Source of the DNA: Steroidobacteraceae bacterium
GTDB taxonomy: Bacteria > Pseudomonadota > Gammaproteobacteria > Steroidobacterales > Steroidobacteraceae
DNA: 35,995 bases
Direction of reading: 5' to 3'
Assembly: GCA_027456085.1 (NCBI GenBank)
Contig: DAIDVO010000030.1
Coordinates: 1 to 35,995 of the forward strand
Positions 29,957 to 35,669 of this stretch are shown here, piece after piece. The first letter of the stretch is position 1, and each line of letters opens with the position of its first letter. The position numbers and the translations under genes were made by a program. A model generated the notes under the pieces. That model ran no database searches, was not told where the DNA came from, and worked only from the letters and a program-made list of their open reading frames with translations.

Positions 29957-30586
29957 TCAACCGCGCCAATGGCGCCACGCGCCGGTATCCATGTGCACGA
30001 AATTGGAAACCCGGTAGTAGCCGACGCCGCCCAGCTTTTGTTTGAGCGCCGTGGCCGCGAGCTCCGCGCAATTGACGCCATTGATCCGCACGTCGATCGC
30101 GCGCCCCTGCATGTGGAGGCTGTGCAGCGCGACGCCGTGGCTGCGTTCATGCAGCATCTCGTTGGTCGCGGGCGAGCGGTAGCCGGATATCACGTGAAAC
30201 TCCGGAGCGACGCCGACCGCGCCCGCCACATGGTGCAGATAATCCATCAAACCGGGATCGATCGGGTGCAGGTCGCCGTTGCGAAAATCGCGCAGCACAT
30301 GTTCGATCTGCGCCATCGCGGATGCAACGTATGCCTGATCCCGATAAAACTCGACATCCAGATCCTCGCCGGTATGCAGATTCATCAGCACGATGCGCTT
30401 CGACGTCGACGCGGCGGCTGCGGCGGCCGGATCCGGCGGGATCGGCGGCGCGTATCGGGACTGCGGCGCGAACGCCGCTGAGCGCGCAAGCGCCGCGCTG
30501 CGCACCGGCCCCGCAATTACACCGGCGCCGACCGCGCAGGCCGCGAGGCTGCCAACTTTCAGGAAACGGCGGCGATCCATCGTCAT
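29957..30586 (-). CDS. YcbK/DUF882 (peptidase M15-like) protein with Tat signal
   Basis: Twin-arginine RRRFLK; EFHVISGYRSPATNEMLHERSHGVALHSLHMQGRAIDVRI; ATGA overlap with upstream gene. Confidence 0.88.
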   Translation of the reverse strand: MTMDRRRFLKVGSLAACAVGAGVIAGPVRSAALARSAAFAPQSRYAPPIPPDPAAAAAASTSKRIVLMNLHTGEDLDVEFYRDQAYVASAMAQIEHVLRDFRNGDLHPIDPGLMDYLHHVAGAVGVAPEFHVISGYRSPATNEMLHERSHGVALHSLHMQGRAIDVRINGVNCAELAATALKQKLGGVGYYRVSNFVHMDTGAWRHWRG

Positions 30587-31779
30587 TGATGACCTCGACT
30601 GGATATGAGCCGCCCGCGATCGAGCGCGAGCACGGTCGCTTTCGGGAAAAAATTGAAATCGGAGGCCGAAGCCCAGGTGTACGCGCCCATCGAGCGCCCC
30701 AGGATGAGATCACCGATTTCCAGCTTGGGTAATTCCATGTTCTCGTCAATCACATCGATACTGTCACATGTGGGACCGGCAAGAACCGACGAAAATCGTT
30801 CCCCGCCCTTCACCAGCGCGTCGATGAGGTAATGCGCGTGGTCGAACAGAAGGCCGTTGTACGAGCCATATACTACATCGTCCGGATAGTACCACCATCG
30901 TCCGCCGCGTTGCGCACGGCCCATCACCGAGGCGACGGCAACCGCTGCCGGAGCGGCAATGAAGCGCCCAGGCTCCGCGATCACCCGCAAGCCTCGCGCA
31001 AGCTCGCGCAAAGCTCTGCGCAATGGCGCACAGAATTCTTCGATCGGCGCCGCCGCCTGCCGATAGTCGACCGGAAATCAGCCGCCGATATCGAGGATTC
31101 GCATGTGCAGACCCCGCGCCGCGGCGCGGCGCAGCAAACCTGCGCACGCGCGGATCGCCTCGACATGCGTATCAGGTCCGCTCGCCTGCGACCCAACGTG
31201 AAACGATAAGCCGGCGACGCGGATGCCGAGCCCCGCGGCGAGCGACATCAGCTCTTCCGCAGCCTCGGGCCCGCAACCGAATTTGCGCGACAAATCGCAA
31301 ACGGCGTCTGGGCTTCTGAACGAAATTCGGATCAAAAGTTCCGCGCGATGGCGCACCTGCGCGAACTTTCGCACTTCGTCCTCGTTGTCGACGACGAAAA
31401 TGCGCACGCCGAAGGCCAAGGCCGTGCGGATATCGCCGTCCCGCTTGATCGGGTGCGTATGAATACAGCGGTCCGGCGCGACCCGCGCGCGCCGCACCAT
31501 ATCGATTTCCCCGTTGCTCGCCAAGTCGAAGTAGGCGCCCTGCGCGAGCAGCGTTTCGACGACCGATTGGTGCGGCAATGGCTTCAGTGCGTAATGTAAA
31601 TCGACGCCCGGAAGAGCCGCCGCGAGCCTTCGATACTGGCCGCGCACGCGCTCGGCGTCGATGACGAGCAGCGGCGAGCCATAGCGCTGCACGAGATGCC
31701 GTATCGAGTCTTCGGAGAACGGGTCCTGCGCCGGATCGAGTTCCAGTTCGCGCGCAGCCCCGGTTTCATGACGCAGCAA
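30583..31779 (-). pseudogene. fold-III PLP-dependent (ornithine/lysine-type) decarboxylase interrupted by one in-frame TGA (31078-31080); nonsense allele or recoded gene
   Basis: Track ORFs 31078..31779 and 30583..31023 are in one frame (398 codons plus stop); manual reading across gives ...HYALKPLPHQSVVETL...SFHVGSQASG...RILDIGG*FPVDYRQAAAPIEEFCAPLRRALRELARGLRVIAEPGRFIAAPA...DVVYGSYNGLLFDH...AGPTCDSIDVI... Confidence 0.88.
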
Positions 31780-31797: not shown

Positions 31798-32787
31798 CTA
31801 GCCGGCGCCGGAGTCGGCCGAGGCCGCGCCCAAGCCGCCGGCTCTGCGCAGGCGGTCGATCACCGCGGTCCAGCGCTCGTCCGCCGGCGGCGCCTGCACG
31901 AAGATCCTCATGCTGCCTGCGCGATCCAGGGTACGCAGGTGGTTGTAGAGATTATGCGCGTAAGCGTCGGCCTTCTTGCCGGCGTTGATCCAAGTCAAGT
32001 AACGCTGCGCATGCATCGGCGCGCGCATTGCCAAGACGGCGACTTTCTCACCGCGTTCGGCAAACTCGGCCGCACGCGCTTCCAGCTCCTCGGACTCGAT
32101 GATTTCGAGCGGCGTCAACGGCGCGTAATGTGAGCCTCGATCGCCGGGAGATCTCGGTGCATCGCCGGCCTCGGCGAGCGTGCCGACGACCTTTTCAATC
32201 TGCGTACGCGTAATGAATCCGGGACGCAGCAAGCGCACAACGTTGCCCAGACACGAAACGATCGTCGACTCGAGGCCTATCTGCGACTCGCCGCCGTCGA
32301 GCACGACCGGCAAAGCGTCGCCGAACTCCTCGCGCACGTGTTCTGGCCTCGTCGGGCTCAAGCGGCCGTAGCGATTCGCCGACGGGGCGGCGATTCCGCC
32401 GCCGAAGGCCGTCAACAATTGCAGCGCGATCGGATGCGCCGGTATGCGAATGCCGATGCTGTTCTGGCCGCCGCTGACGACCGTATTGACGTCGTCCGCC
32501 TTTGGCAGAATCAAGGTCAGGGGACCCGGCCAAAACTCCGCGGCCAGACGTTCGGCCGCGGGCGGCATCTCGCGCACCCAGCGGTGCAAATAGCGCGGAT
32601 TGTCGAGGTGCACGATGACCGGGTGATCCGCGGGCCGGCCCTTGAGTTCGAATATACGGACGACGGCCGCCGGATCCGCCGCATTGGCGCCGAGTCCGTA
32701 AACGGTTTCCGTCGGAAACGCGACCAGCCCGCCGGCACGCAAAGTTTCGACGGCTTCTTCTATTTCAGTCTGTGTCGCTCTTACCAC
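31798..32787 (-). CDS. L-threonylcarbamoyladenylate synthase (Sua5/TsaC family, long form)
   Basis: TLRAGGLVAFPTETVYGLGANAADPAAVVRIFELKGRPADHPVIVHL; SIGIRIPAHPIALQLL; IGLESTIV; C-terminal Sua5 domain (PRSPGDRGSHYAPLTP). Confidence 0.93.
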   Translation of the reverse strand: MVRATQTEIEEAVETLRAGGLVAFPTETVYGLGANAADPAAVVRIFELKGRPADHPVIVHLDNPRYLHRWVREMPPAAERLAAEFWPGPLTLILPKADDVNTVVSGGQNSIGIRIPAHPIALQLLTAFGGGIAAPSANRYGRLSPTRPEHVREEFGDALPVVLDGGESQIGLESTIVSCLGNVVRLLRPGFITRTQIEKVVGTLAEAGDAPRSPGDRGSHYAPLTPLEIIESEELEARAAEFAERGEKVAVLAMRAPMHAQRYLTWINAGKKADAYAHNLYNHLRTLDRAGSMRIFVQAPPADERWTAVIDRLRRAGGLGAASADSGAG

Positions 32788-32825: not shown

Positions 32826-35669
32826 TTAAGAAACCGGCGCAGCGACGTCGAGCGGATCGAGATCGGTGCGGCGCCAGCGGCCGTCCGCCTGGCGCACGAG
32901 TTCGTACGCGGGCCAATAGTGCTTGTCGAGCTTCAGCGTGATGACGTCGACTTGGCCGTTCCAACTGACCGTTTTGAGGCGCACCGAGGCGCGATCCGGC
33001 TTAGCGCGGACGGCTTCGATGAACGCGTCCAGATTCGGCGTCGGCCGGCCGTCGACTTCAATAATGCGCCGCCCGGCGAACAGCCCATAGTGCGTGGCGG
33101 GCGAGCCGTAGTAGAAAAAGGCGACGAACACGCCGGTACGCGGTATCCCGCGCTGAATGGCCATTGCGCGATAGGGCGCCTGCAAGGTCGCGCCCGCCCA
33201 AATCAATACACGATCAATGCCGCGTCCTCGCAGCGGCACGGTCGCCATCGTCAGGGTCTTCTCGGCCCCGTCCCGCCAAACGGTCGCGGTGACCTCGGGC
33301 TTTTGCACGGCCAGCTCGACCTCGCGGAAGCGCTTCACGCCCTTGCCGTCGACCGCGAGCAGCAAATCCCCCGGCTCCAGAAGCCGCGATTCGGGCGATC
33401 CGGCCGCCAAGCGGTCGATGCTGAGAACCTGTCTGCGTTGTTCGTCGTGCTGCTCGAATCGGCGCACCCAGGCATCCGGCAGGCCTAATTTGCGCGCGTT
33501 CGCGAGCGACGCGACGTCGAATTCGGCTTCGAAGGAGTACATCGGCTTATCGTCGATGACGTCCGTGACCATCTGCGTGACGATATCGGATGGAATGCCG
33601 TGGTTCGCCTGCGCGATGCCTTGTTGCGTTTCGAACGCGAAACTCGCCCAGAGCGCGAGCACCTCGCCCTTCTTGTTGGCGAGCACTCCGTCGAAGTCGC
33701 TCGGCGGGTTCACGAGATCGGCCGCCTCGAGATTGCTGTCGCGGAACCGCAGGGTCCGGGACAGCGGGAACGAGAGCACGTCCATGCTCGACACCTGGGT
33801 TTTCTCGGACATGAGCTTCGAATCGCTGTGCTGCCCGACGACCCATACGTCGTCGCCGGCCTTCAGTTCCCGGGTATCGAACGTTGCCGCGCGGACCGGC
33901 GTATCGCCGATCAACCTAGGGTCGTACGAAATGACCGCAAGGTTGTGCAACGGATGAATGAACACGACCTTCCCCGGGACCTCGACCGTGTCGTCGAACG
34001 TGATGCGCACGTCCCCGAGCGAGACCGGCACGGTGTTGCGGTCCGTCACGATCAATCCGCGCTTCGTATCGACGATCACGCCCGTGCCGTGGTAGTGCCG
34101 TTCGGTGACGCCGGAAACCGAGTAAGGCATGTCGAAGTTTATCGACACCAGGGACGGCGCCAGCCTGTCGATCCGGGGATCCCCGGTGTGCGCAAACCGG
34201 GTCGATGCGCTCTTCAGCGGCCGCGGCGCGGGACCGGGCGCGATGCGCATGCACGGCCAGGTGCCGAGGCGGTCATCGCGCACGCACTCGCGCGCGGGAA
34301 ACCAGAGCCTGTCCATGCGCATCACCTTGAGCTGCACGGCGTGCGGATCCTGCAGCGTCACGTAACGCACCGTCGCCCGCGCACCGTCCGCCAAAGTCGC
34401 GAGCACCGAGGCGAAATCGGCCAGCTTTTCGACTTTCTTACCGTTGACCGCACTGATCAGCGCGGCACGCGGTATGCCGGCGCTGTCGAATACATATCCG
34501 GGATCCGCGACGTAGACGCCTTTGATCGGCAAATGAAAGCTGCGCGCCATCTCGTAGGAGAGCGTATGCACGACCGCATCGCCGAATTCGATGTACGAAT
34601 CGGCCGTGATCGAGTCCAAATTCACGACGCCCAGCCGTTGGCTGATCCTCTTGTCGCCCCGCTGCACCACGACGTCGATCGGCAGGCCGACATGGCCGTC
34701 GAGCACGGCCTCCAGCGCGAAGAACTCGGGCACCGGTTTGCCGTCGATCGATATCAAGATATCCCCTGGCTGCAGATAGCGGTCCGCCTCCGATCCCGGC
34801 TGCACGTCGTCGACGACCAGCATGCCCGTCAGCTGCGGGAACGCGCGGCGCATGCGCGCCTCCGTCGCCTTCCCTAAGCCGAGTCGCGTCAGTTCGTCGT
34901 ACGGCGTGTATTTGAAGACTGTCTCCAGCGTGCCACGCGGCACGGGCTTGCCGGCTTCGATGAACTTCAGCGCCCGGGTCACTACCGGCAGCGGGAAATA
35001 GAAGCTCGATGCGGCGCCGGTGGCGCCGCCGGCGTTCAGCGCGACGACCCGACCCTTGATGTCGATCACCGGCGAACCGGAAGAACCCCCGGAAGTGCTG
35101 GAGGCCGCCTGGTAGTAAAACGTATTGAAATCGTTGTACTTGCCATAGCCGTATTGCGGCGCTTCGCGGTCCAAGCGCGCCAATGTGCCGGCAAGAATCG
35201 ACAGTTGTTCGCCGGCATCGTTGCCGACCACCCGGATCTCGCGTCCGACCACGGCGCCCTGGGGATAAAGCGGCAGCGCCGCGGGTTTGATGAACCTCAG
35301 TTTCGACGGATCGTAGCGGTAGATGCCGAAGTCATGCACCGGGTCGCGATAGACCGGGTAGAGCTGAACTTCCTCTCGATTCTGGAAGATCGCCTGGGCG
35401 ATGACCGGACCCGCGGTGACCACGTGACGATTCGTCAATATCAAGCCGTGCTTCGCGTCGATCACAAAGCCGGTCGCTTGCGCGCTCTCGTTCCACTCCG
35501 TATCGAAGGCGCGCGTACTGTCGATTTGAATCGACACGACCGCGGTCGATATCCGCTCGAGCGTCCGCGTCCACTCGTCGGCGGAACTCTCGGGCGTTTG
35601 CGCACAAGCGGCGAATGACGCGCCGATGGAAACGACGAACAGGCACCAGAAGGCGGCTAGGCGTGGCAT
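32826..35669 (-). CDS. exported Nma111/DEG7-like tandem HtrA-type serine protease with multiple PDZ-like domains
   Basis: 947 aa with Sec signal; first domain has ATGFVIDAKHGLILTNRHVV, YRDPVHDFGIYRYDP, VVGNDAGEQLSILAGTLARLDR, TSGGSSGSPVIDIKG; second domain homologous but degenerate; PDZ-like segments after each. Confidence 0.9.
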   Translation of the reverse strand: MPRLAAFWCLFVVSIGASFAACAQTPESSADEWTRTLERISTAVVSIQIDSTRAFDTEWNESAQATGFVIDAKHGLILTNRHVVTAGPVIAQAIFQNREEVQLYPVYRDPVHDFGIYRYDPSKLRFIKPAALPLYPQGAVVGREIRVVGNDAGEQLSILAGTLARLDREAPQYGYGKYNDFNTFYYQAASSTSGGSSGSPVIDIKGRVVALNAGGATGAASSFYFPLPVVTRALKFIEAGKPVPRGTLETVFKYTPYDELTRLGLGKATEARMRRAFPQLTGMLVVDDVQPGSEADRYLQPGDILISIDGKPVPEFFALEAVLDGHVGLPIDVVVQRGDKRISQRLGVVNLDSITADSYIEFGDAVVHTLSYEMARSFHLPIKGVYVADPGYVFDSAGIPRAALISAVNGKKVEKLADFASVLATLADGARATVRYVTLQDPHAVQLKVMRMDRLWFPARECVRDDRLGTWPCMRIAPGPAPRPLKSASTRFAHTGDPRIDRLAPSLVSINFDMPYSVSGVTERHYHGTGVIVDTKRGLIVTDRNTVPVSLGDVRITFDDTVEVPGKVVFIHPLHNLAVISYDPRLIGDTPVRAATFDTRELKAGDDVWVVGQHSDSKLMSEKTQVSSMDVLSFPLSRTLRFRDSNLEAADLVNPPSDFDGVLANKKGEVLALWASFAFETQQGIAQANHGIPSDIVTQMVTDVIDDKPMYSFEAEFDVASLANARKLGLPDAWVRRFEQHDEQRRQVLSIDRLAAGSPESRLLEPGDLLLAVDGKGVKRFREVELAVQKPEVTATVWRDGAEKTLTMATVPLRGRGIDRVLIWAGATLQAPYRAMAIQRGIPRTGVFVAFFYYGSPATHYGLFAGRRIIEVDGRPTPNLDAFIEAVRAKPDRASVRLKTVSWNGQVDVITLKLDKHYWPAYELVRQADGRWRRTDLDPLDVAAPVS

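Follow-up and report, generated by a model that had tools for sequence, protein, structure and literature searches.

A predicted exported bacterial relative of the Nma111/DEG7 proteases combining a putatively active and a degenerate HtrA unit

In most accounts, Nma111 and DEG7 figure as proteins of eukaryotes that reside in nucleus and chloroplast. Fungal Nma111, also termed Ynm3, has the same active-plus-degenerate layout as the bacterial protease described here. For plant Deg7 the domain order PD-PDZ-PDZ-PDia-PDZ-PDZ was published (PMC3473262), and that paper cites the inactive domain of AtDeg7 as being involved in trimerization. The fungal protein is assigned to the nucleus, and for plant Deg7 plastid stroma, nucleus, mitochondrion or cytosol are given (PMC4130198). 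The PDZ_1 domain is present in fungal and absent from mammalian HtrA members, and Klim et al. 2018 noted that certain proteins of bacteria lie closer to the OMI protease of yeast (Nma111) than to human HtrA (PMC5982838). Our literature searches found no paper describing a full-length exported bacterial family. New here are the full-length form with its predicted export, its conserved pseudo-triad and its near-core occurrence, as well as relatives of half the size from another class.

The window, i.e. the whole stretch of 35,995 nucleotides analysed here, is part of the genome of a Steroidobacteraceae bacterium (contig DAIDVO010000030.1, assembly GCA_027456085.1) and carries the protease gene close to one end (Table 1). 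Pfam analysis of the encoded 947-aa protein revealed two Trypsin_2, two PDZ_1 (both above the cut-off) and three PDZ_6 matches; the protein consists of two units, each with a trypsin-like, a PDZ and a PDZ_1 domain, with four PDZ domains in all. The two protease-like repeats which the first-pass annotation had described were recovered by Pfam, in an alignment of 97 rows and as two predicted folds, and a codon check on the open reading frame found its positions for His82, Ser197 and Asn545 to be correct.

Table 1. Features of the protease gene and of its next downstream neighbour, in window coordinates.
Feature	Position	Strand	Evidence or conservation
Nma111/DEG7-type HtrA protease ORF, 947 aa, ATG start	32826..35669	(-)	ORF call, Pfam, AlphaFold model
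Predicted Sec signal peptide, residues 1-23, MPRLAAFWCLFVVSIGASFAACA	35601..35669	(-)	sequence; hydropathy rule
Protease domain 1, residues 38-235, predicted catalytic from its intact triad	34965..35558	(-)	Trypsin_2; fold match Z 23.3
Catalytic His82	35424..35426	(-)	kept in 97/97 relatives
Catalytic Asp113	35331..35333	(-)	kept in 97/97 relatives
Catalytic Ser197 in GGSSGSP	35079..35081	(-)	97/97 relatives; oxyanion Gly195 likewise 97/97
PDZ domain, unit 1, residues 245-348	34626..34937	(-)	PDZ_6/PDZ (Pfam); model
PDZ_1 (PF12812), unit 1	34386..34613	(-)	67.2 bits vs cut-off 28
Protease domain 2, residues 500-705, degenerate	33555..34172	(-)	second Trypsin_2 stretch; residues 495-813 fold match Z 23.1
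Asn545, His position of domain 2	34035..34037	(-)	N 84, D 8, S 3, T 1, Y 1 of 97; never H
Asn576, Asp position of domain 2	33942..33944	(-)	N 90, D 7 of 97
Asp660, Ser position of domain 2	33690..33692	(-)	D 81, G 12, gap 2, M 1, T 1 of 97; never S
PDZ domain, unit 2, residues 710-812	33234..33542	(-)	PDZ_6 stretches (Pfam); model
PDZ_1 (PF12812), unit 2	32991..33215	(-)	38 bits vs cut-off 28
Sua5-type threonylcarbamoyl-AMP synthase, next downstream gene, conserved neighbour	31798..32787	(-)	Pfam

Conservation was assessed in an alignment of 97 full-length bacterial sequences, among them the query. All 97 share His82, Asp113 and Ser197 of unit 1 as well as the oxyanion Gly195, and protease domain 1 was the most conserved region (mean entropy 0.79, 38 of 198 columns invariant). 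In unit 2, neither a His at the His position nor a Ser at the Ser position was found in any of the 97 rows (0/97 each), from which we conclude that this unit is non-catalytic across the whole sampled family. Its altered triad residues are themselves conserved, usually as an Asn/Asn/Asp pseudo-triad. Protease domain 2 varies more (mean entropy 1.48) but is evidently under constraint, and conservation is fairly high in the last PDZ_1 domain (mean entropy 1.30). Judging from the aligned sequences, the combination of an intact triad in unit 1 with this pseudo-triad is more than chance, and the proposal of one putatively active and one degenerate HtrA unit in the same protein was supported. Two strongly diverged long forms from a single family (L123 and L124, family f3; frames of 900-918 aa) have a second half that evolves very fast, and their His position is occupied by Ser or Tyr.

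An AlphaFold model computed from 30 relatives reached a mean pLDDT of 83.8 and a pTM of 0.80, with poor prediction (pLDDT <50) of the active-site loops around residues 165-195. Structure comparison of this model, which was also searched with Foldseek, gave Deg8 as the match for residues 24-354 (281 residues aligned with rmsd 3.6, Z 23.3) and the bacterial HtrA protein 8kic as that for residues 495-813 (285 residues with rmsd 4.9, Z 23.1). Model and matches together predict a trypsin-like fold for both units, so that a lack of two such folds, which the first-pass annotation had named as a refutation, was not seen. A sequence search of the PDB returned no solved structure of the long form; the closest entries were ordinary HtrA proteins, with their best-matching stretches in unit 1. 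Many diverse bacterial sequences are now usable for structural work on the long form.

The protease shares the HtrA protease fold, PDZ domains and export, the latter predicted for the bacterial long form, with the Do family proteins DegP, DegQ and DegS, which differ by a single protease unit, the lack of a strong PDZ_1 domain and their position in a separate clade. With the NCBIfam Do/DegP model TIGR02037 it scored 126.3 bits and did not reach the curated cut-off of 416.2, whereas the same genome also encodes a true DegP (487 bits) in addition to a DegS-like protein. A tree was calculated from separated N and C halves (20 each) together with DegP-like proteins, using tool-derived sequences only. 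All 20 N halves formed one clade (100/100), all 20 C halves another (100/99), and the DegP-like proteins, with DegP and DegS of this genome among them, a third (100/100), with the halves of the query outside. The protease is thus no ordinary DegP or DegQ, being placed outside with full support, and the other refuting outcome named in the first-pass annotation did not occur either. As the N halves and the C halves each form one clade, the computation places a single ancestral duplication before the radiation of the bacterial family. PF12812 was rejected as sole family marker: it matched 69 of 299 genomes, nearly all weakly via DegP-like second PDZ domains, and the long form occurred among these 299 only in the genome of the window and in genome G007. 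Searches of other sequence collections yielded further candidates that were discarded. In the plasmid collection (tblastn), all matches were partial and DegP/DegQ-like and extended over less than 80% of the query, and a plasmid match to the C half (H13) was an ordinary trypsin-like peptidase gene; viral contigs gave a single weak 28% fragment.

With plant DEG7 (AtDeg7, Q8RY22; plant Deg clade III) the protease has in common the PD-PDZ-PDZ-PDia-PDZ-PDZ order, the size class and, in the provisional DEG7 sequence used here, Asn/Asn in unit 2 where His and Asp would be expected, but the bacterial form is predicted to be exported and is devoid of the long linker between the units. Fungal Nma111/Ynm3 differs in being nuclear or cytoplasmic and linked to apoptosis, and the provisional yeast sequence carries Arg instead of Asn at the His position of unit 2. 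PDZ_1 domains are shared with the fungal proteins (PMC5982838). The sequences of AtDEG7 (1097 aa, as published) and yeast Nma111 (995 aa) used in this work were provisional versions and not database records, and comparisons with them serve as a lead and not as a test. Yeast Nma111 presumably has a true length of 997 aa, two residues more than the sequence used here. On this footing, provisional AtDEG7 showed 49% and 36% identity to the two halves and provisional Nma111 43% and 28%, the yeast sequence being collinear with the protease over ~920 residues at 35% identity. In the half tree, the provisional eukaryotic N halves joined the bacterial N halves (100) and the C halves the C halves (99), and the halves of these two provisional sequences fell inside the bacterial radiation. 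A full-length tree united the two provisional rows (95/95) among deep gammaproteobacterial branches. The PDZ_1 domains, the six-domain layout published for plant Deg7 and the comparison with the provisional sequences hence support the placement of the protease as a relative of the Nma111/DEG7 family from bacteria, in which the first HtrA unit is putatively active and the second degenerate. The closer likeness to Nma111 and DEG7 than to DegP and DegS, which had been noticed from the sequence, agrees with this placement.

The signal peptide predicted at the outset is shared by the family: by a simple home-made hydropathy rule, 73 of 77 relatives have a signal-peptide-like N-terminus, and the bacterial protease is very probably exported. 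Given these N-termini and the locations of the eukaryotic proteins, it is predicted to reside in a compartment different from that of DEG7 and Nma111. By sequence, the protease may alternatively be a lipoprotein cut before Cys22. By eye, a lipobox-like LTSC was seen at the N-terminus of L083, a divergent member from genome G007, so that some family members may be lipoproteins.

The gene product is likely an exported serine protease of HtrA type that works without ATP and belongs to the Nma111/DEG7 kind, organised as PD(active)-PDZ-PDZ-PD(inactive)-PDZ-PDZ, for which we propose periplasmic quality control. The protein would work in the periplasm, where unit 1 would cleave unfolded or damaged envelope proteins and the PDZ domains would pick up substrates by binding their ends, while unit 2 might act as a structural and regulatory scaffold holding a trimer, as reported for Arabidopsis DEG7. 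These roles are drawn from general HtrA knowledge and from the involvement of the inactive AtDeg7 domain in trimerization as cited in PMC3473262. With DegP and a DegS-like protein encoded in the same genome, the enzyme would be an additional envelope protease and probably takes part in envelope protein quality control alongside DegP.

The presence of DegP in the genome can also be read in favour of the main functional rival, a DegS-like signalling or processing protease with one or few substrates and unit 2 as sensor. A specific ligand would be in keeping with the conservation of the pseudo-triad and of the last PDZ_1 domain, and Nma111 is said to act on the specific substrate BIR1 (PMC7804941); however, no substrate- or regulator-like gene occurs among the conserved neighbours, and we regard such a role as rather unlikely. 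A protein acting mainly as chaperone or scaffold with little proteolysis would fit four PDZ domains and one dead unit, and chaperone activity of yeast Ynm3/Nma111 is cited in PMC4877387. The invariance of the unit 1 triad and of the oxyanion Gly in 97/97 rows nevertheless argues for selection on catalysis and makes this reading improbable. For the proposed quality control protease, the bacterial form permits the role of the dead protease unit to be addressed in a simple periplasmic system. A full-length, very probably exported and near-core bacterial counterpart provides the Nma111/DEG7 family with a bacterial home and a different compartment.

The full-length form was present in 128 of 147 genomes of the order to which the window belongs and in 104 of the 112 good ones. 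The largest block of absences concerns one family with small genomes of ~1.1-1.6 Mb (f266), the others one genus (g469) and single genomes. Across the class it occurred in 25 of 369 genomes distributed over many families, and among 398 sampled genomes of the phylum, this class was the only one with the long form. One collection scan, covering Pseudomonadota-type records and one MAG labelled Actinobacteria (L021), gave 80 loci, most of them full length. Relatives share the neighbourhood gcvT-gcvH-gcvPA-gcvPB, a pfkB-type kinase gene, the protease gene, sua5, lysA, often mepK, and a HIT-domain gene; the Sua5 ORF follows the protease gene in most loci of the order, and the upstream part is kept even in relatives without sua5 downstream. 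These neighbours are housekeeping genes and uninformative on the function of the protease. In the window, the lysA-like decarboxylase gene is split (30583-31779, minus strand) into ORFs 31078-31779 and 30583-31023, while it is one ORF in many relatives; either a frameshift or an error of the assembly accounts for the split. The contig end (35813-35995, minus strand), immediately upstream of the protease gene, holds the 3' part of an ORF which resembles YciH/SUI1 (eIF1-like) by eye, where most other relatives have the pfkB-type kinase gene.

Near-universal presence in the order, apparently by vertical descent, together with the conserved neighbourhood argues for an old bacterial gene with long vertical inheritance and against a recent acquisition. 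The lateral transfer into the bacterium that had been suggested from the sequence is thus not supported as a recent event. Such a transfer of a eukaryotic Nma111/DEG7 gene, with subsequent gain of a signal peptide, would explain why the protease resembles the provisional DEG7 and Nma111 sequences far more than it does the compared DegP-like proteins. It is very improbable in view of the occurrence throughout the order and in many families of the class, the deep bacterial diversity in the full-length tree, the conserved neighbours, the signal peptides throughout the relatives by the hydropathy rule, and the position of both provisional eukaryotic halves inside the bacterial radiation of the half tree. 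An independent tandem duplication of bacterial DegP, whose second copy degenerated by itself and whose likeness to Nma111/DEG7 is convergent, could draw on DegP-like proteins being common and many of them having weak PDZ_1 scores. This explanation is hardly credible because both halves separate from DegP at 100/100, PDZ_1 scores 67 bits in the protease against ~20-41 bits in DegP-like proteins of ~500 aa, and each half of the provisional eukaryotic sequences, N or C, clusters with its bacterial counterpart. Tentatively, the exported gammaproteobacterial family may be the older source of Nma111 and DEG7, acquired by fungi and plants in an ancient transfer, with later loss of the signal peptide and a move to nucleus and plastid, half-size relatives keeping the stage before duplication. 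The bacterial family in any case makes the origin of the eukaryotic genes testable.

Another class of the phylum includes an order in which 14 of 131 genomes carry a half-size form with one unit, mostly of ~490 aa. The carriers, the genome with locus L125 and 13 more, have small genomes of ~1.1-2.4 Mb. The L125 protein combines a signal-like N-terminus with the same GGSSGSP active site; Pfam did not recognise PDZ_1 in it, and the family profile assigned it 172 bits as compared to 54 bits for the DegP of the window genome. In the half tree, the half-size proteins grouped with the N halves, closer than DegP (97/83). They may represent the stage before duplication or forms which lost unit 2. At L125 (1426-2898), the half-size gene adjoins ORFs which by eye resemble Pal and CpoB/YbgF.
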